A stretch of 60,654 bases of DNA from an uncultured Oscillospiraceae bacterium. GTDB lineage: Bacteria; Bacillota; Clostridia; Oscillospirales; Oscillospiraceae. The translations under genes and the position numbers were made by a program. This document shows positions 4,583 through 13,160 of the stretch, piece by piece. The notes under the pieces are model-generated. The model saw only the letters and a program-made list of their open reading frames with translations, ran no database searches and was not told where the DNA came from. The DNA lies in NCBI GenBank assembly GCA_944387055.1, contig CALXDL010000062.1, positions 1-60,654 of the forward strand. Reading direction: 5' to 3'. How positions within the stretch are numbered: position 1 is the stretch's first letter; each line of letters starts with the position of its first letter.

Positions 4583-5509
4583 TCAATCGCCGGCTGCCAG
4601 GTATCCTTCTGCCATGTGGACGGCCATCGCGCCGTCCGCTACAGCTGTTACCACCTGGCGAAGCAGTTTTGTCCTCACATCGCCCACTGCATAGACACCG
4701 GGAAGCGCAGTTTCCGTAGTTTCCCCGGCCACTACATAGCCCCTCTCGTCCAGTTCCAGCTGGCCTTTGACCAGCTCCGTCACCGGTCTCCTGCCTACGC
4801 TGATGAACACACCATCACACTGGATGACCGTTTCTTCTCCAGTAACGACGTCTTTCAGCCGCAGGCCCGTAAGTTTGCTGTCATACAGGAGCTCCGTGGC
4901 CACACTGTTCCAACAAAATCCCACATTCTCTGCGGTCATCAAGGGCTTATGATAGATCTTGGTGGCCCGAAGGGTGTCACGGCGGTGGACGATGATGACT
5001 TTTTTGGCAATGCGGCTCAGGAGCAGTGCATCTGCCGCAGCAGAGTTCCCTCCGCCGACGACTGCGACCGTCTTGCCGCGGTAGAACATCCCATCGCAAG
5101 CAGCACAGTAGGCAACGCCCCGGCCGACCAACTCCTTCTCGTGTGCGATGCCCAGTTCTTTCGGATCGGCTCCAGTGGCAAGCACCACCGTCTTGCTGTA
5201 AAATGTCCCCTCGCTGGACTCGATCGCTTTGGGGCACGCTGTGAGGTCCAGTCTCCGGACCTCAGCATACTCCGTCTTGGCGCCAAACCGCTCCGCCTGC
5301 TTCTGGATCTTCTCTCCCAGAGAGAAGCCATCGATGCCATCCTCAAAACCGGGATAATTATCAATCTGATGGGTCAGTGCCATCTGCCCCCCGGCGGACA
5401 GCTTTTCCAGCACCACAACATCCAAGCCCGCTCGGGCGGCATACAGGGCGGCTGTATATCCGCCTGGGCCGCCGCCGATGACGGCCATATCATAAACATG
5501 GCCCTTCAT
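4583..5509 (-). CDS. trxB: Thioredoxin-disulfide reductase
   Basis: FAD- and NADPH-dependent enzyme that reduces thioredoxin; 308 aa, normal length. FAD-binding GGGPGG lies at 12-17, the redox pair C135-A-A-C138 in CAACDG, the NADPH-binding VGGGNSAAAD at 151-160, and the closing FAD motif GVYAVGDVR near residue 270. Its ATG overlaps the thioredoxin stop (TGATG), so the two are translationally coupled and the substrate is the product of the upstream gene. Transcription starts at the CRP-box promoter ahead of the thioredoxin gene. Confidence 0.96.
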   Translation of the reverse strand: MKGHVYDMAVIGGGPGGYTAALYAARAGLDVVVLEKLSAGGQMALTHQIDNYPGFEDGIDGFSLGEKIQKQAERFGAKTEYAEVRRLDLTACPKAIESSEGTFYSKTVVLATGADPKELGIAHEKELVGRGVAYCAACDGMFYRGKTVAVVGGGNSAAADALLLSRIAKKVIIVHRRDTLRATKIYHKPLMTAENVGFCWNSVATELLYDSKLTGLRLKDVVTGEETVIQCDGVFISVGRRPVTELVKGQLELDERGYVVAGETTETALPGVYAVGDVRTKLLRQVVTAVADGAMAVHMAEGYLAAGD

Positions 5510-5844
5510 CAGGTATCCTCCCGATCCGCCAGGACCCGCTGGATGAATCCTTCGATCATCGCTTTGGATGTCGGGGCAACGATAGAATCGACCGCTTTCC
5601 CATCCCGGTAAAACACCAATGTAGGGAGCACTTCGATCCGCTCCAGCTCTGCCAGTGCCGTTTCCTTATCCACATCCACTTTTGCCACAGTGATCTCATT
5701 GCCATAGGTCTCTGCGATCTTCTCGTAGGCCGGACCGATCCGGCGGCAATATCCGCACCAGGGGGCCCAAAAATCCACCAGGACGGGTCTTCCACTTCCC
5801 ACCATCTGGTCAAACTGCATTTTATCCATATCGATAGCCGCCAT
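5509..5844 (-). CDS. trxA: Thioredoxin (paralogue 1)
   Basis: Small redox protein, 111 aa, with an active site WCGYC (C30, C33), one residue different from canonical WCGPC. The cis-Pro segment is VLPTLVFYRDGK. Start placed at the ATG with AAAGGAG 8 bases upstream; the open frame extends further 5' but without a ribosome site. First gene of the trxA-trxB operon, controlled by a promoter with a GTGA palindrome. Cytosolic; partner is TrxB. The Tyr in the active-site loop is seen in some specialised thioredoxins. Confidence 0.94.
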   Translation of the reverse strand: MAAIDMDKMQFDQMVGSGRPVLVDFWAPWCGYCRRIGPAYEKIAETYGNEITVAKVDVDKETALAELERIEVLPTLVFYRDGKAVDSIVAPTSKAMIEGFIQRVLADREDT

Positions 5845-5874: not shown

Positions 5875-5916
5875 AGTATATCCGATCGCAGCGTTTGCTT
5901 CCGTGATGACATCACT
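5875..5916 (-). promoter_or_regulatory. CRP/FNR-box promoter of trxA-trxB
   Basis: On the minus strand, AGTGATGTCATCACG (5902-5916) is followed by exactly 21 bases and the -10 box TATACT (5875-5880). No TTGACA-like -35 lies at the right distance, so the palindrome centre falls near -41, the position of a class II activator. The same arrangement is found at 10106-10147 and 11189-11230. Confidence 0.8.
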
Positions 5917-6031
5917 CATCAGACTGGGTACAATGCCGCTTGCCCTGTCACTCCCTTCCCCGCCAGAGCTGCCGATCGCCAAAGAGAGCCTCTGGCGCCG
6001 CCTCGTTCCATCGGGCATCTCCCTATGAGGA

Positions 6032-6061
6032 GCCGCCTGCCGGAACGTTCCGGCAGGCGGC
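6032..6061 (-). terminator. 30-bp perfect palindrome after desulfoferrodoxin
   Basis: GCCGCCTGCCGGAAC (6032-6046) is followed at once by its inverted copy (6047-6061). It lies 12 bp past the desulfoferrodoxin stop and can fold as a 12-bp GC stem with an AACGTT loop, but there is no U-run. Terminator or mRNA-stabilising hairpin. Confidence 0.6.
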
Positions 6062-6073
6062 AAACGCGGCCCC

Positions 6074-6451
6074 TTACACTTCGGTCATCCACAGGCCATG
6101 GATATTGCAGTACGCGTAAACAGCAACGGCTTTGTCGTCCCCCAGAGAAAAGGAGGCACGGGGGGCATCGCCAGGCTTCAGGATTTTGCTCTGTCCGCCC
6201 CTTTCGGTCTGGACATAGATCCACTCGATATAATGTTCGGGGAGCATGGGATGATCCACACTGCCCACATTGACATTGATGATACTGCCCTCCACAGCAA
6301 CTACGGGCAGATGCTTCTCACCGCTGGCTTCGACCGTATTGGGGACCAGCGCTTCCATCTTCTCACCACAGCAGACCACGGGGACGCCAGCATCATTGAT
6401 CATACCGATCAGGTTGCCGCAGTGGCGGCAGATATAAAACTTAGGTTTCAT
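6074..6451 (-). CDS. dfx: Desulfoferrodoxin (superoxide reductase)
   Basis: Reduces superoxide to hydrogen peroxide without making oxygen, an anaerobe's alternative to superoxide dismutase. 125 aa, cytosolic. The N-terminal desulforedoxin domain supplies the Fe(Cys)4 site (CRHC at 8-11 and a CC pair at 27-28). The C-terminal domain carries the Fe(His)4Cys centre: His in GEKHLPV, His in VDHPMLPEHY and the CNIHG motif. GGAGG precedes the ATG. It is a single-gene unit ending at a palindrome and divergent from the CRP-like regulator. No GTGA box is visible in front of it, so it may be regulated differently from its neighbours. Confidence 0.96.
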   Translation of the reverse strand: MKPKFYICRHCGNLIGMINDAGVPVVCCGEKMEALVPNTVEASGEKHLPVVAVEGSIINVNVGSVDHPMLPEHYIEWIYVQTERGGQSKILKPGDAPRASFSLGDDKAVAVYAYCNIHGLWMTEV

Positions 6452-6469
6452 TCGAATGATCCTCCTTCT

Positions 6470-6979
6470 TGATCTTCACTGCGGACCTCGAAGCGAGGCC
6501 GCACATATTTGCCGACAAGATCGCTCTTGCGGGCCGCAGGGCTGACATGGGGTCCTGGGCGGAAGCATCTCCGCCCTTGATGGACCTACCGACGCCCCGC
6601 TTGCAAGGGAACCTTTTGGTCCCGTCTGTCCTATCTTACCAAGGCTATGGTTTCCGATGGGCCGTTTCCGTTTTTCACGGGACCGAACGGTCTTCCATAG
6701 GGCCCCTGCGGCATCTGGATCTTAGCCTGCACCATCGGTCCGTCCTTTATTTTGAAGATATCTTCCAACTTTTAGCTCCTTTTACCCACCTTGGCAGGCA
6801 TTGGTCCGCTCGGCCTCTTATACGCTCCCAACGAACGCTCTCCAGCTCCATAGAGGCTTGCCCTGATCTATCCAGGGCCTCTCCAGAGGGCCTCCTCAGG
6901 GGACCTGCGGCCAGTTTCTCTACTGGTCCATCCGCACCCTCAGATGCGCCGAGAGCACGGACATAGGGCGATCGACTAA
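6470..6979. other. Non-coding region between desulfoferrodoxin and the CRP-like gene
   Basis: About 500 bp between two divergent genes. An open frame crosses it on the plus strand but has no ribosome site and a low-complexity, Pro/Ser/Arg-rich product, so I do not call it. An imperfect hairpin (GCGGACCTCG...CGAGGCCGC, 6481-6502) lies just upstream of the desulfoferrodoxin Shine-Dalgarno and may be a leader structure. Confidence 0.5.
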
Positions 6980-7008
6980 TTGACATATGTCCAAAATCTG
7001 ATTATACT
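6980..7008 (+). promoter_or_regulatory. Consensus promoter of the CRP/FNR-type gene
   Basis: TTGACA (6980-6985), exactly 17 bp, TATACT (7003-7008); GGGAGG follows just before the start. A near-perfect sigma-70 promoter predicts steady expression of the regulator. Confidence 0.9.
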
Positions 7009-7038
7009 TATCCACAAGAAGGCTCGGGAGGTAATGCC

Positions 7039-7698
7039 ATGGAGTTCAAAGAGTATTTTCCGATCTGGGATAAGCTGACCTCAGCGCAGCAAGAGAAGGT
7101 CTCGAACAGCATCACTCGCCGCGTTATCAAAAAAGGCGTCGTGATCCATAACGGCAGCATGGATTGCGCCGGCCTCCTGTTGATCAGATCCGGACAGCTC
7201 CGGGCCTATATCCTCTCTGATGAAGGACGAGAGATCACCATCTATCGTCTATTCGACATGGATATCTGTCTGTTTTCTGCTTCCTGTATGATGAACAGTC
7301 TCCAGTTCGATATCACCATAGAAGCAGAGAAAGATACCGACCTTTGGGTCATCCCCCCTGAGGTCTATAAAGAGATCATGCAAAGCTCCGCGCCCGTAGC
7401 AAACTACACCAATGAGATCATGGCAGCACGTCTCTCCGAGGTCATGTGGCTCATCGAACAGATCATGTGGAAGAGCATGGATAAGCGTGTTGCAGCCTTC
7501 TTGTTGGAGGAAGCCTCTATCGAAGGGACGGACCGTTTGAAGATCACCCACGAGACCATCGCCAACCATCTGGGCAGCCACCGGGAAGTCATCACCCGGA
7601 TGCTCCGGTATTTCCAGAGCGAGGGGATGGTAAAACTGGCCCGTGGGATCGTGGAGCTCACAGATGGAGCAAAACTGCGTGCACTGCGCGATGCATAG
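7039..7698 (+). CDS. CRP/FNR-family transcription regulator
   Basis: 219 aa: cyclic-nucleotide-binding-like beta-barrel (about 10-125), dimer helix (125-155) and winged helix DNA-binding domain (165-215). The recognition helix reads HREVITRML, with R182, E183 and R187 at the spacing of CRP's R-E-x-x-x-R, which reads GTGA half-sites; three such palindromes stand before nearby thiol-redox operons. There is no N-terminal FNR cysteine cluster; C43, C77 and C83 are candidates for redox sensing. It ends at a hairpin that overlaps the convergent CoA disulfide reductase gene. Most likely the activator of the local redox regulon. Confidence 0.9.
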   Translation: MEFKEYFPIWDKLTSAQQEKVSNSITRRVIKKGVVIHNGSMDCAGLLLIRSGQLRAYILSDEGREITIYRLFDMDICLFSASCMMNSLQFDITIEAEKDTDLWVIPPEVYKEIMQSSAPVANYTNEIMAARLSEVMWLIEQIMWKSMDKRVAAFLLEEASIEGTDRLKITHETIANHLGSHREVITRMLRYFQSEGMVKLARGIVELTDGAKLRALRDA

Positions 7699-7708
7699 CT
7701 TCCAGCAT

Positions 7709-7748
7709 CCACCTCTTACCGTTCAGGGACGAGGTGGGTGTCTTTTTT
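7709..7748 (+). terminator. Terminator of the CRP-like gene, overlapping the convergent gene
   Basis: CCACCTC (7709-7715) and GAGGTGG (7731-7737) form the stem, followed by GTGTCTTTTTT. The hairpin includes the stop and last codons of the convergent CoA disulfide reductase gene. Confidence 0.75.
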
Positions 7749-9428
7749 ATCCATGCCGCAGGCAGTGGCCGATCCGATCAGGCAGCGGTCGTTCATCACC
7801 GTGTCGTAGAAGCGGAAGCCGCCCGCAAGATTGTAGGCATCATAGCCCTCTCCCATCAGGATACGTGCTGCGATATAGCTGCGCAGTCCGCTCTGACAGA
7901 TGACATAGACGGGCTTTGCAGCATCGATCTCATCCAGTCTCTCCCGCAGCTCATCCACTGGAACGTTCAAAGCACCGTCGATGTGTCCGCCGCGGTACTC
8001 TTCCGCCGTCCTGACATCCAGCAATGTTATGCCATGGGGCAGCGAGGTCATATCCTCCAGATACCACTGCTTCACGATGCCTTTGGCGATATTCTCGACC
8101 ATAAAGCCGGCCATATTCACCGGATCTTTGGCAGAAGAATAGGGCGGCGCATAAGCAAGGTCCAGGTCCTTGAGCGCAGTGGCCTTCATCCCGGCATGGA
8201 TGGCGGTGGCCAGTACATCGATGCGTTTATCCACGCCCTCGTGGCCAACGATCTGAGCGCCCAGCAAACGGTACGTCTCTTTTTCGAAAACGATCTTCAT
8301 CGCCATCACTTTGCCGCCGGGATAGTAACCAGCATGGCTCATGGGGGAGAGGATGACTTTATCCACATCCAGACCGGCTTTCCTGGCGTTGGTCTCGTTG
8401 ATGCCGGTAGTTGCTGCAGTCATGTCAAACACTTTGATCACAGAGCTGCCCTGGCTGCCTAGATACCGGCTGTCGCCGCCGCAAATGTTGTCGGCCGCGA
8501 TCCGCCCCTGCTTGTTTGCAGGTCCGGCAAGAGAAATGAGCCCATCCTCACCGGTAACATAGTGTTTTATCTGTACCGCGTCGCCGACAGCGTAGATATC
8601 GGGGACAGACGTTTCCATCCGGTCATCGACCACGATGCTGCCCTTGATGCCCAGCTCCAATCCGGCCTCTCTGGCAAGGGCGGTGTCAGGGCTGACCCCA
8701 ATGGCAAGGACCACCATGTCTGCATGGAGGGAAGGCTCATCCTTCAGCAGCACATCCACACCGCCGTCCCGCTCTTCAAATCCCTCCACGGTATGGCCCA
8801 GCATCAGCCTCACGCCGTGTTTGCGCATTTCACTGTGGATGAAAGCGGCCATGTCCGGGTCAAAGGGATTCATCAGCTGTTTTGGACGCTGGACGATGGT
8901 GACATCCATCCCCAGTCCCCGCAGGTTCTCGGCCAGTTCCAGACTGATGAAGCCGCCGCCTGCCAGTATGGCGGACTTGGGATGGTGCGCGTCGATATAT
9001 CCCTTGATGCGGAACGTGTCTTCCACAGTGCGCAGGGTGAACAGTTTGTCGGATCCGGCTCCGGGAAGTCTGGGCTGGGTGGGTCTGGCACCAGGAGAGA
9101 GGATCAGTTTATCGTAGGACTCCTCAAATTCCCTGCCGGTCTCCAGATCTTTTACAGAGACTGTCTTCCGGTCGGGATGGAGCGCGATGACCTCATGATG
9201 CACCTTCATATCCACCCGGAACCGGGCAAAAAAGCTCTCTGGTGTCTGAAGGGTGAGCGCCTCGGGGTCTGTGATCACATCTCCAATGTAGTAGGGCAGG
9301 CCGCAGTTGGCGTAGGAAATGAAACCTGAACGCTCGAACACCACGATCTCTGCCTGTTCATCTAGCCTGCGGATCCTCGCTGCGGCTGTGGCACCGCCAG
9401 CTACACCGCCTACGATCACAACTTTCAT
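7716..9428 (-). CDS. CoA-disulfide reductase / NADH oxidase fused to rhodanese
   Basis: 570 aa. Residues 1-445 are an FAD/NAD(P)H pyridine nucleotide-disulfide oxidoreductase of the CoADR/Nox type: FAD site GGVAGG (7-12), the single redox cysteine C42 in SYANC, NAD site AILAGGGFISLELAENL (starts near 153), and GDAVQ. Residues about 460-550 are a rhodanese domain with catalytic C511 in CQSGLRS. The CoADR-rhodanese fusion reduces CoA-disulfides, CoA-persulfides or polysulfide. Third gene of the thioredoxin-rhodanese-CoADR operon. A short Cys-containing tail (CLIGSATACG) follows the rhodanese fold. Confidence 0.94.
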   Translation of the reverse strand: MKVVIVGGVAGGATAAARIRRLDEQAEIVVFERSGFISYANCGLPYYIGDVITDPEALTLQTPESFFARFRVDMKVHHEVIALHPDRKTVSVKDLETGREFEESYDKLILSPGARPTQPRLPGAGSDKLFTLRTVEDTFRIKGYIDAHHPKSAILAGGGFISLELAENLRGLGMDVTIVQRPKQLMNPFDPDMAAFIHSEMRKHGVRLMLGHTVEGFEERDGGVDVLLKDEPSLHADMVVLAIGVSPDTALAREAGLELGIKGSIVVDDRMETSVPDIYAVGDAVQIKHYVTGEDGLISLAGPANKQGRIAADNICGGDSRYLGSQGSSVIKVFDMTAATTGINETNARKAGLDVDKVILSPMSHAGYYPGGKVMAMKIVFEKETYRLLGAQIVGHEGVDKRIDVLATAIHAGMKATALKDLDLAYAPPYSSAKDPVNMAGFMVENIAKGIVKQWYLEDMTSLPHGITLLDVRTAEEYRGGHIDGALNVPVDELRERLDEIDAAKPVYVICQSGLRSYIAARILMGEGYDAYNLAGGFRFYDTVMNDRCLIGSATACGMDKKDTHLVPER

Positions 9429-9749
9429 TTATGATACCACCTTCCCAAGATGACCGGCGATACCGCCGATGTCCGTTACATTGGTATATCCCATACGCCG
9501 CAGCAGGCCAACCGCCTGACGGCTCCGGGCCCCGGAATAACAATAGACGAACAGGGGAACATCCTTGTTTTCGACTACGGATGTTATCTTGCCGATCGTC
9601 TGCAGCGGTACGTTTTGGCTGCCGGGGAGCTGGCCCTCCCGGTACTCCTGCGGGGTACGCACATCCAGGAGCACAGCGCCGGGGACCGTCTTATACGCTT
9701 GGATCCCCTGCTCGATATCAGGCCGTTTGAAAAGATCGAAGAGTCCCAT
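9429..9749 (-). CDS. Single-domain rhodanese
   Basis: 106 aa; a stand-alone sulfurtransferase domain with DVRTPQEY (29-36) and catalytic C70 in the loop CYSGARS. Expected to move sulfane sulfur between persulfide carriers in the cytosol. It lies one base from the CoADR-rhodanese start and 12 bp after a thioredoxin, so all three are made together; thioredoxin can reduce the rhodanese persulfide. GGAGG precedes the start. Confidence 0.92.
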   Translation of the reverse strand: MGLFDLFKRPDIEQGIQAYKTVPGAVLLDVRTPQEYREGQLPGSQNVPLQTIGKITSVVENKDVPLFVYCYSGARSRQAVGLLRRMGYTNVTDIGGIAGHLGKVVS

Positions 9750-9761
9750 ATCCCGACCTCC

Positions 9762-10067
9762 TCACAGCATCGCAAGGATCGCGCTCTTGGGTCTTGCGCC
9801 TATGGCCTGATCGACGATCTTGCCGTCCTCCATCACCACCAGGGTCGGGATACTCATGATGCCGAACTGGCGCGCCAGCTCAGGCTGCTCGTCTATATTG
9901 ACCTTGCCTACCTTGATATCGGAACGCTCTCCGGCGATCTCTTCAACGACGGGGGCCACCATACGGCAAGGGCCGCACCAGGGCGCCCAGAAGTCCAACA
10001 GGACAGGTCGATCTGCGTGCAGGACTTCACTTTGGAAATTGCTCTTGTTGATATCGATGACAGACAT
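9762..10067 (-). CDS. trxA: Thioredoxin (paralogue 2)
   Basis: 101 aa with the canonical active site WCGPC (C31, C34) and cis-Pro MSIPTLVVMEDGK. I start at the ATG 8 bases after AAGGAGG; an in-frame TTG two codons earlier is too close to that site. First gene of the operon with rhodanese and CoADR. Its promoter has the GTGA palindrome. It is clearly different in sequence from the WCGYC paralogue 4 kb away, suggesting separate clients (sulfur transfer here, general reduction with TrxB there). Confidence 0.95.
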   Translation of the reverse strand: MSVIDINKSNFQSEVLHADRPVLLDFWAPWCGPCRMVAPVVEEIAGERSDIKVGKVNIDEQPELARQFGIMSIPTLVVMEDGKIVDQAIGARPKSAILAML

Positions 10068-10105
10068 GTTCAAGTCCTCCTTATGTCCTTTTGTTTTATG
10101 GTCCT

Positions 10106-10147
10106 ATCATACCTGCCGCTGCGGATATTTTCTGTGATGTCATCACC
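10106..10147 (-). promoter_or_regulatory. CRP/FNR-box promoter of the thioredoxin-rhodanese-CoADR operon
   Basis: Minus strand GGTGATGACATCACA (10133-10147), then 21 bases, then TATGAT (10106-10111). No -35 consensus. Centre near -41, identical geometry to the trxA-trxB and SDR promoters. Confidence 0.8.
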
Positions 10148-10351
10148 TTTGCTCCAAACGGCTCCCCGGCCGATCGTCTGTCCTAGTGCGACCGATTTTT
10201 CACGCACCCATTTGCTCCCGCGACGGCAGTATGCCAGGAGCAGCCGGTCTTTATCTGCCGGCCCGGGACCTTTGTCATACGCCGCGCGGCCAGTCATGGG
10301 ACCCACCAGGGATCCGGGCCCCTTTCTTCCCATGCGCTCTCCCATATCTGC

Positions 10352-10385
10352 AAAAACAGGGCGGCGAAGGTCCGCCGCCCTGTTT
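10352..10385 (-). terminator. Terminator of the SDR gene
   Basis: AAACAGGGCGGCG (10354-10366) pairs with CGCCGCCCTGTTT (10373-10385), 13 bp. On the minus strand the stem ends in TTTTTG, 14 bp past the SDR stop. Confidence 0.9.
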
Positions 10386-10398
10386 CCACGCATACACG

Positions 10399-11145
10399 TC
10401 AGACCCTTGCCATGCCGTCTACGCTCAATACCACTCCGGTGATATAGGACGCCTCCTCAGAGGCCAGGAACACGAATGCGTTGGCGATGTCCTGAGGCCG
10501 TCCCAGCCGCCGCAGCGGGATCTGCTCGATCATGGGACCGATCACTTCTTTGGGGACCGCCCGCATCATATCAGTCTCCGTGATACCGGGCGCGACTGCA
10601 TTGACGCGGATGCCCTTGGGACCGAGCTCACGGGCAAGAGAGACCGTCAGACCATTGACTGCAAATTTGGATGCCGGGTAAGCAAGACCGCTGGGTTGAC
10701 CCGAGATACTGACCATCGAGGACGTAGAAAGGATAACGCCCTGACCGCGAGCGACCATGCACTCACTGGCAGCACGCGTGGCATTGAACACGCCCTTCAC
10801 ATTCAGGTCCATGACCCTGTCGAACGTCTCCTCGGTATACTCGGTAAAGGGCGTGCTTTCAGAAACGCCTGCGTTATTGATCAGGATATCCACACAGCCA
10901 TAGTGCGCAGTGACCTCCCTGAATGCATCCCGGACGGATCTCAGGCTGGTCAGATCAGGGCTGATCCCTGCGACCGTTGCCCCGGGATGTCTTTCTCGCA
11001 GCTCTGCCACTGCCTTATCCGCAGAGGCCTGAGAGCTCGCCGCAAGGATGACGGTGGCGCCCTCTTCCAGGAATCTATCCGCAGTGGCAAAGCCGATGCC
11101 GCGGCTACCGCCGGTGATGATCGCAACTTTATCCTTCAGTCTCAT
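10399..11145 (-). CDS. SDR oxidoreductase, FabG-like
   Basis: 248 aa classical short-chain dehydrogenase: TGGSRGIG (11-18), NNAG (90-93), catalytic S142/S143, Y156 and K160 in YPASK, and a C-terminal ITGVVLSVDGMA. It resembles 3-oxoacyl-ACP reductases and hydroxysteroid dehydrogenases; the substrate cannot be read from sequence. It is not within a fatty-acid operon, and its promoter carries the same GTGA palindrome as the thiol-redox operons, which argues for a redox-linked role rather than lipid synthesis. GGAGGAAC precedes the ATG. Confidence 0.9.
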   Translation of the reverse strand: MRLKDKVAIITGGSRGIGFATADRFLEEGATVILAASSQASADKAVAELRERHPGATVAGISPDLTSLRSVRDAFREVTAHYGCVDILINNAGVSESTPFTEYTEETFDRVMDLNVKGVFNATRAASECMVARGQGVILSTSSMVSISGQPSGLAYPASKFAVNGLTVSLARELGPKGIRVNAVAPGITETDMMRAVPKEVIGPMIEQIPLRRLGRPQDIANAFVFLASEEASYITGVVLSVDGMARV

Positions 11146-11188
11146 GCTTGTTCCTCCTTTTTCTTTATCGTTTTATGATCATGTCGAT

Positions 11189-11230
11189 AGCATACCCATT
11201 TTTTGATATCTCTTCTGTGATGGTATCACA
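11189..11230 (-). promoter_or_regulatory. CRP/FNR-box promoter of the SDR gene
   Basis: Minus strand TGTGATACCATCACA (11216-11230), a perfect TGTGA-N5-TCACA palindrome, then 21 bases, then TATGCT (11189-11194). Same geometry as the other two boxes. Confidence 0.8.
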
Positions 11231-11905: not shown

Positions 11906-12520
11906 ATGGAGTTTTATGACGTTATCAATGAACGGCACATGATTCGGGAATGGAAATCTGAGGATATTTCTATGGAAGTGCTGAAACGGGTTCTTGCCGC
12001 AGGACTAAAGGCACCCACACACGACCACCGGCGAAACTGGGAATTTATCATCCTGCATAACCAACAGGAAAAAGAAACTGTACTTCAACTCGCTAAAGCA
12101 TAGAGTGTTTCTCAGGAGGAACAAAAGGAAGTCTCTGCCCTTGGCTCAATTCCGCAGCGAATGTATGCCTACGCCATGCCCCGCCAGTATTCTATGTTGG
12201 TTACTGCTCCTTACGTGGTGATCCCTGCTTTCAAGGGCGCAGGGATATTCAATGCCAGACCCGTCAACGGACTCAATAGCTTCGCTTCTATCTGGTGCGT
12301 GGCTGAGAACATCTTTCTTGCCGCTACAGCGGAGGGGTTGGCCTGTTCCATGCGGATTCCTGTGGGTGAAGAAGGAAAGCAGGTCATGTCCGTTCTGGAC
12401 GTTCCGGAGGGATATGTGATGCCCTGCTATATCGGTATCGGCTATCCGGCGGAAAACGCTCCTGTTGTAGCGCAAGTCGAAAAGGCGGTGGACAGTACAC
12501 TGCACTTTGGTAAATGGTAG
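11906..12520 (+). pseudogene. Nitroreductase, interrupted by an in-frame amber codon
   Basis: The frame opens at ATG 11906, runs 65 codons, meets TAG at 12101-12103, then continues in the same frame to a stop at 12518-12520 with no frameshift. The two halves together align end to end with the intact paralogue that follows (MEFYDVINERHMIREW against MEFYEAIRKRRTVREF; MYAYAMPRQYSML against MYGYAMPRQYTML; NIFLAATAEGLACSMRIP identical). The region around the stop is also a few residues shorter than the paralogue. The downstream half could restart at ATG 12161 but lacks the FMN-binding N-terminus. Most simply a recently inactivated copy; stop readthrough is the other option. Confidence 0.88.
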
Positions 12521-12533
12521 GAGGTTTTTGAAG

Positions 12534-13160
12534 ATGGAGTTTTATGAAGCGATCCGGAAAAGAAGGACGGTCCGGGAGTTTCTGGATAAAGAGGTCGATT
12601 TTGAAGCAATCAAACGGATCTTAGAGGCGGGCAATCTGGCTCCTACCTGGAACCACAACCGCAACTGGAGTTATATTGTCCTGAGAACAGATGAGGAAAA
12701 GGAATACGCATTTGAATATGCGAAGAAGATTGCTGACAAGTTCGATGCAGAAAAATATCTGAATGCGCCGAGACCGTACCCAACGACACTCGCTCAGAAA
12801 ATGTACGGTTATGCGATGCCGAGGCAGTATACGATGCTCAAAAACGCGCCCTATGTGGTCATCCCGGTTTTTAAGTGCAAAGAACTGAACGGCAAATATG
12901 TATCCAAACTGAATCCATTTTCCACGATCTGGTGCGTAATCGAGAACATTTTTCTGGCAGCAACCGCAGAAGGATTGGCTTGCTCCATGCGAATTCCACT
13001 CAATGAAGAGCATGACATCGTAAAAGCAAAATTGAAGGTGCCGCCGACCTATATGATCCCCGTTTTTATCGGAATCGGTTACGCTGATCCGAACGAGATG
13101 GTATTGGAGCAAAATGTCGCCGATCTTGATAAACAACTGCACTATGGCAGATGGAAATAA
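12534..13160 (+). CDS. Nitroreductase-family FMN enzyme
   Basis: 208 aa. FMN- and NAD(P)H-dependent oxidoreductase; the N-terminal RKRRTVREF is the phosphate-binding Arg cluster of the family, and the C-terminal LACSMRIP and IGIGY segments match the second FMN contact. Start at the ATG 9 bases after AGGAGG. The adjoining interrupted gene is a tandem duplicate. Operon with marR, an SPL-like protein and mutM points to detoxification of nitro or quinone compounds coupled to DNA repair. The stop overlaps the next start by 10 bases. Confidence 0.9.
   Translation: MEFYEAIRKRRTVREFLDKEVDFEAIKRILEAGNLAPTWNHNRNWSYIVLRTDEEKEYAFEYAKKIADKFDAEKYLNAPRPYPTTLAQKMYGYAMPRQYTMLKNAPYVVIPVFKCKELNGKYVSKLNPFSTIWCVIENIFLAATAEGLACSMRIPLNEEHDIVKAKLKVPPTYMIPVFIGIGYADPNEMVLEQNVADLDKQLHYGRWK

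Follow-up and report, generated by a model that had tools for sequence, protein, structure and literature searches.

Does a CRP/FNR-type gene set among thiol-repair genes activate its neighbors, and a wider regulon with them, from one fixed promoter position? This question is raised by positions 5,875 to 11,230 of a 60,654-nucleotide (nt) stretch of DNA from an uncultured Oscillospiraceae bacterium (assembly GCA_944387055.1, contig CALXDL010000062.1), which we call the window. A previous sequence-only reading of this block had described three promoters with one shared palindrome and a regulator gene at 7039 among the genes that they precede. From our comparative analysis of sites and regulators, we consider it likely that the 7039 gene product is a class II activator of a thiol-repair regulon of Clostridia.

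Three promoters with one box in one register

The three boxes and their -10 hexamers in the window are as follows, with boxes located by an exact palindrome scan and starts placed at CA from the site logo described below.

5903..5915, minus strand: box 1, GTGATGTCATCAC, upstream of trxA-trxB
5875..5880, minus strand: -10 TATACT of box 1, inferred start 5868 (CA)
10134..10146, minus strand: box 2, GTGATGACATCAC, upstream of the thioredoxin-rhodanese-CoADR set
10106..10111, minus strand: -10 TATGAT of box 2, inferred start 10099 (CA)
11217..11229, minus strand: box 3, GTGATACCATCAC, upstream of the short-chain dehydrogenase (SDR) gene
11189..11194, minus strand: -10 TATGCT of box 3, inferred start 11182 (CA)

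Exactly 22 nt separated the 13-bp core GTGAT-N3-ATCAC from the -10 hexamer at all three promoters. The distance of 21 bases reported earlier is the same register counted from a 15-mer rather than from the 13-bp core. By eye, no TTGACA-like element was present in any of the three, in agreement with the previous claim that they lack a -35 consensus. Pfam and TIGR profile matches also confirmed the gene content of the block as it had been named:

7039..7698, plus strand: CRP/FNR-family regulator, 219 amino acids (Pfam HTH_Crp_2 and cNMP_binding, both over cut-off)
5509..5844, minus strand: trxA, thioredoxin (Pfam Thioredoxin, 5.9e-28)
4583..5509, minus strand: trxB, thioredoxin reductase (TIGR01292, 363 bits, over cut-off)
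6074..6451, minus strand: desulfoferrodoxin (Pfam Desulfoferrodox, 3.4e-19)
9762..10067, minus strand: thioredoxin, first in the thioredoxin-rhodanese-CoADR set (TIGR01068, over cut-off)
9429..9749, minus strand: single-domain rhodanese (Pfam Rhodanese, 3.5e-15)
7716..9428, minus strand: CoA-disulfide-reductase-like (CoADR) flavoprotein with a C-terminal rhodanese domain (Pfam Pyr_redox_2, Pyr_redox_dim and Rhodanese; TIGR03385 503 bits, under the cut-off of 579)
10399..11145, minus strand: SDR (Pfam adh_short_C2, 7.9e-65)

Within the block, no box was found upstream of the desulfoferrodoxin gene. We then scanned the assembly to which the window belongs (2.12 Mb, 106 contigs, 85% complete) for the exact palindrome GTGATNNNATCAC, as had been recommended, and found eight occurrences with none for the reversed control. 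Three of the eight fell inside the 5.3-kb block, and four had TATNNT at 22 nt, namely the three block boxes and one on contig C72; the palindromes on C7, C47, C53, and C71 had no TATNNT at 22 nt. All four promoter-register sites stood upstream of thiol/redox genes. The C72 site, just past a second desulfoferrodoxin and a rubrerythrin end, preceded a DUF6132-like gene (below the Pfam cut-off), which was followed by genes for a CcdA/DsbD transmembrane protein and a TlpA-like thioredoxin. The concern that such boxes might be common in unrelated promoters was thus not borne out in this assembly for the promoter-register form.

Site, start signature, and regulator across genomes

We searched 150 genomes of the family for regulator homologues (E up to 1e-20), which 56 contained, and for GTGAYNNNRTCAC-N22-TATNNT, which 53 contained, with the reversed control matching in 3/150. 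The site was present in 46/56 genomes with the regulator versus 7/94 without it, and the resulting table (46 genomes with both, 10 with the regulator alone, 7 with the site alone, 87 with neither) gave a Fisher p of 2.7e-21, a value that, like the other p value below, overstates independence because the genomes are related to one another. Since trx genes alone might explain the association, we redid the table on the 97 family genomes with a trxB hit (E up to 1e-60); both were present in 38, only the regulator in 6, only the site in 4, and neither in 49, so that the site occurred in 38/44 genomes with the regulator versus 4/53 without. Candidate sites, defined as an exact palindrome or one with up to 2 mismatches and a nearby -10, were found at least once in 37 of the 49 regions fetched around family regulators. 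A search of 243 genomes of the class, with the regulator at E up to 1e-40, gave 27 genomes with both, 14 with the regulator only, 24 with the site only, and 178 with neither (25, 14, 24, and 178 after removal of two family members; p 3e-11). Stretches from G362, G208, G311, and G264 had sites near genes of the set (thioredoxin, CcdA, CoADR-like, or others) along with a diverged regulator homologue; at 58-73 bits, these homologues scored too low to enter the class table. In 10 kb from G294, no homologue of this kind was seen.

The half-sites were 5 bp rather than 6 bp apart (GTGA-N5-TCAC), which refines the previous description, and relatives widen the consensus to GTGAY-N3-RTCAC. We also searched the 150 family genomes with both the half-site distance and the gap to the -10 hexamer left free; the reversed control matched in 4 genomes, and N5 with a gap of 22 accounted for 69 among the 123 matches listed and no other combination for more than 7. 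By half-site distance, these 123 listed matches comprised 89 N5, 26 N6 (scattered over gaps), and 8 N4, with 0-7 at each other N5 gap. We also examined loci around regulators in GTDB genomes, using the best 80 of 585 relatives among the candidates. Palindromes in these best 80 loci numbered 5 for N2, 19 for N3, 2 for N4, 101 for N5, 12 for N6, 2 for N7, 3 for N8, and 25 for N9; the gap of 22 held 56 N5 sites in 43 loci, every other gap held at most 4, and GTGAN5TCAC-N22-TATNNT was present in 52/80. Some genomes had a single palindrome flanked on either side by a -10 at 22 nt; in G097 it separates the regulator from trxA-trxB, and in G007 a ferredoxin from a CoADR gene.

A logo of 157 unique sites, with the -10 hexamer numbered -12 to -7, placed the box at -47 to -35 and revealed two conserved elements that the search had not specified: RGAA at -34 to -31 (G-33 94%, A-32 77%, A-31 73%) and CA at -1/+1 (C-1 69%, A+1 88%). 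CA was present at all three window promoters and at the C72 promoter and probably marks the transcription start. Taken as the start, it sets the box center at -41, which upholds the center near -41 proposed before. Class II activators bind at about -41. Position -49, the mirror of G-33, was unconserved (C 13%), indicating that RGAA does not belong to a symmetric operator. In a TTGACA set 17 nt from the -10, the G and A would coincide with G-33 and A-32, and RGAA is likely a remnant -35 element. TTGACA matches of 5 or 6 positions occurred at 0/157 sites and matches of 4 at 8/157, versus about 17 expected for at least 4 from the base-shuffled spacer.

The first labelled gene downstream of the 157 sites encoded thioredoxin (78), a 4Fe-4S protein or its membrane partner (24), TrxB (11), rhodanese (10), SDR (8), CcdA/DUF6132 (6), rubredoxin/rubrerythrin/desulfoferrodoxin (4), CoADR (3), the regulator (2), a nitroreductase-like protein (1), another protein (3), or none (7), a count biased toward the regulator's neighbors because the loci were picked around it. 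A fairer set was provided by 89 family sites from the genome-wide search. Among the 46 lying within 20 kb of the regulator, 41 preceded core redox genes, 4 associated genes, and 1 another gene. Unlinked sites, more than 20 kb from the regulator or on another contig of a regulator-bearing genome, numbered 36 and preceded core redox genes in 23 cases, associated genes in 5, and other genes in 7, with 1 unread at a contig end. The 7 sites in genomes without the regulator comprised 2 core, 1 associated, and 4 other. In the stretches examined of two named strains, Anaerobutyricum hallii DSM 3353 had one site, ahead of the thioredoxin-rhodanese-CoADR set, and Blautia wexlerae MSK.20.46 had three, ahead of SDR, thioredoxin-rhodanese-CoADR, and TrxA-TrxB.

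Two further gene arrangements were seen at these sites. In many family loci (e.g., L073 4213-4991) a site lay ahead of a small 4Fe-4S protein with two clusters, after which came a membrane protein that starts with WYDYLW and has Fer4_5, below cut-off, as its sole Pfam match; the pair is perhaps an uncharacterized electron carrier to the CcdA pathway. At L060 974-1192, a 73-amino-acid DUF6132-like protein (below cut-off) stood ahead of CcdA and TlpA, and this DUF6132-like-CcdA-TlpA order is that of the C72 gene set and of several other genomes.

The regulator and its relatives

The regulator has the fold of the CRP/FNR superfamily, a cNMP-binding fold with a Crp helix-turn-helix, by both Pfam and fold search, and NCBIfam gave no family at cut-off for it. 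A fold search with the structural model (mean pLDDT 92.3) returned PDB 3DV8 at TM 0.96 and 70% identity and others, CRP, FNR, and the like, at 16-23% identity. The 3DV8 structure, released in 2008, is EUBREC_1222, a putative Crp/Fnr regulator of Eubacterium rectale whose cysteines and recognition helix match those of the window regulator when the two are aligned. In open-access PubMed Central (PMC) text no paper was found for the locus tag EUBREC_1222, and we found no assigned role for 3DV8.

The previous reading had singled out C43, C77, and C83 as sensing residues unlike those of FNR and had matched R182-E183-x3-R187 to the arrangement by which CRP reads GTGA. Both sets of residues are present as described. 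The regulator has cysteines at 43, 77, and 83 only, and R182-E183-x3-R187 forms its recognition helix. Across 132 regulator rows (L039-L092, L163-L242, and the window, some of the genomes being near-identical), conservation was 132/132 for C43, 131/132 for C77, 132/132 for C83, 132/132 for R182 and E183, and 130/132 for R187. Homologues of 29-54% identity in 10 further loci kept the three cysteines in all cases, and of five homologues from other families four had all three and one had Lys at position 83. In another clostridial family, three diverged regulators (L244 9724, L245 6078, and L249 3732) had a His after Cys77 (C-H-E-A-L-S-C), which recalls the ligand region of CooA and may reflect a different sensor chemistry.

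We compared the regulator with characterized proteins. FNR resembles it in family and redox role, with TM 0.64-0.71 to the A. fischeri FNR entries, but FNR has four cluster cysteines, three of them in an N-terminal group that the regulator lacks, and FNR sites have TTGA half-sites where those here have GTGA. The Arg-Ser residues that matter in the cAMP phosphate pocket, as in the cAMP-binding relative Vfr, are not kept when the window regulator is aligned with Vfr. CooA was the best characterized profile match outside 3DV8 (E 2.6e-20); in the alignment C77 lies one residue off the heme ligand Cys75, and C83 lies on Cys80 of CooA (heme-ligand numbering, Cys75/His77, as in the available part of PMC6955866). 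CooA sites are a 16-bp palindrome, TGTCGGCNNGCCGACA, in the available part of PMC545781, unlike the N5 box here. E. coli CRP and its class II promoters share R-E-x3-R, GTGA half-sites, and a box center at about -41 with our system, but CRP half-sites have N6 spacing in the same portion of PMC545781, which also ties Arg180 of CRP to the G of the half-site. The N6 spacing of CRP-type sites does not describe the boxes here, among which N5 dominates.

Two other CRP/FNR regulators and one thioredoxin study also bear on this comparison. HcpR, a CRP/FNR regulator of anaerobes with Clostridium among its reported hosts, has TTGTGA-N6-TCACAA sites and hcp/frdX targets according to the available part of PMC545781; the system described here has N5 sites and thiol-repair targets instead. 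PgRsp of Porphyromonas gingivalis is a Crp/Fnr protein of oxidative stress, a CooA relative that binds heme and was modelled on 3DV8 (PMC6955866, available part); compared by description rather than by direct homology, it differs in its heme binding and its targets. A paper on clostridial thioredoxins places C. difficile trx promoters under SigB, SigA, and SigG, and the available part of its text contains neither "Crp" nor "Fnr" (0 occurrences; PMC10880999). A description of the regulon or its site was not found in open-access PMC, a scope outside which most subscription papers and bioRxiv fall.

Activation, repression, and the signal

We propose that the gene at 7039 encodes a dimeric CRP/FNR regulator that would bind GTGAY-N3-RTCAC directly, contact RNA polymerase, and activate sigma-70-type promoters from a single class II position, with RGAA taking the place of the -35 box, TATRMT serving as the -10, and transcription starting at the conserved CA. 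The predicted regulon serves thiol and reactive-sulfur repair through thioredoxins, thioredoxin reductase, rhodaneses, CoADR/rhodanese flavoproteins, and SDR, and elsewhere would add CcdA-TlpA, 4Fe-4S proteins, rubrerythrin, and desulfoferrodoxin. C43, C77, and C83 are probably where the regulator responds, either through their own oxidation or sulfuration or through a bound cofactor, and its targets suggest oxidized thiols, persulfides, or oxygen as the signal. The original proposal that this gene activates thiol/persulfide repair is supported insofar as the site follows the regulator and redox genes follow the site, at 4/4 sites of the assembly and at most unlinked family sites; its binding and activating steps we infer.

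Repression through the same regulator and box is an unlikely alternative, in which a protein over the -35 region would block RNA polymerase until a redox signal arrives. A protein bound across the box, at -47 to -35, could have this effect, and CRP/FNR proteins act both ways (PMC545781, available part). A blocking repressor would not need the fixed 22-nt distance, however, and this exact register argues for activation, as does the rarity of TTGACA matches relative to the shuffled spacer. We consider it very unlikely that another transcription factor binds the box and the CRP/FNR gene merely adjoins it. Such a factor would account for the seven family genomes with a site and no regulator hit, but the co-occurrence of site and regulator extends to unlinked sites, R-E-x3-R suits GTGA half-sites, and in a single case, G044, a homologue lacking the Glu of R-E-x3-R goes with a genome that has no exact site. 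That a short palindrome recurs near -10 boxes by chance, with which the window scan at 2 mismatches given below would agree, is scarcely credible given the reversed controls, the fixed spacing, the cross-table of site and regulator, and a start-site signature that lies outside the search pattern.

The nature of the sensor is less settled. A distinctly possible variant keeps the regulator and regulon as proposed and has bound heme or an iron-sulfur cluster as the sensor, with a gas or oxygen rather than thiol oxidation as the signal. By profile, the CO/heme protein CooA comes closest among characterized sensors, the distant PgRsp binds heme, and the three near-invariant cysteines could serve as metal ligands; on the other side, C77 is offset from the CooA heme ligand, and three cysteines fall short of the four that FNR uses. 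Direct thiol sensing forms part of a broader and more tentative proposal, which we hold to be doubtful as a whole, that an undescribed CRP/FNR subfamily, whose half-sites lie only 5 bp apart and whose sensor domain has three cysteines, is the master switch of thiol/persulfide repair across gut Clostridia, in the role that Spx or OxyR has elsewhere, sensing reactive sulfur or disulfide stress at C43, C77, and C83.

Several observations weigh against our interpretation. The exact site was not found in 10/56 family genomes with the regulator; four of these had near misses (a TANNNT -10 at 22 nt in G015, G038, and G087, and one changed base with a gap of 21 in G037), and no near miss was seen in the remaining six. 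Similarly, 28 of the best 80 loci had no GTGAN5TCAC-N22-TATNNT site within the stretch scanned, several of these stretches being short. At the class level, 24 genomes had a site but no regulator hit at E 1e-40, and the reversed control matched in 12/243 genomes, so that some class-level sites are chance matches. The 7 unlinked sites ahead of other genes include one ahead of SDR, as in the window, and labels beyond the core set rest partly on reference proteins from the sites themselves, making the core counts safer. A window scan with up to 2 mismatches gave 26 matches versus 28.6 expected from shuffles; within the window, only the exact form is therefore informative. Finally, regulators with His181 had T in 121/134 half-sites and those with Ala181 in 44/102, but on a tree of 96 rows, with loci without a site and duplicate proteins left out, this co-variation reduced to 2 changes and 1-2 independent pairs and was not counted as support.

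The fold and the promoter class are known, whereas no description of the site spacing, sensor pattern, or regulon was found in open-access PMC. The data suggest a stress switch, apparently undescribed, that is shared by many oxygen-sensitive gut bacteria. Oxygen and reactive-sulfur handling in strictly anaerobic gut Clostridia is poorly known, and with a single regulator, box, and promoter register and a list of targets, the regulon can be tested directly in cultured commensals. The results also suggest what 3DV8, a structure so far unexplained, may do, and they raise a structural question: by what means a CRP-type dimer reads half-sites that are spaced by 5 bp instead of 6.

Some minor observations concern other promoters and genes. 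The regulator's own likely promoter, as read from sequence, carries no box:

6980..7008, plus strand: TTGACA-N17-TATACT

Its -35 box sits, by eye, within the inverted repeat TTGACATATGTCCAA (window 6980-6994), which could be an operator of another type. Two genomes with no hit for the regulator, G010 and G112, had four N6-spaced GTGAC-N4-GTCAC promoters with TATACT after a gap of 22-23; these may form a CRP-type regulon of their own. At C16:24657-24725, the assembly of the window itself (G000) contains a GTGAC-N4-GTCAC palindrome, N6-spaced and flanked on either side by TATNNT-type boxes, and a further N6-spaced palindrome lies on C61. Beyond the block, a nitroreductase-like frame, named by eye, at window 11906-12520 is interrupted by an in-frame TAG near 12102 and is followed by an intact-looking second nitroreductase-like copy at 12507-13160.

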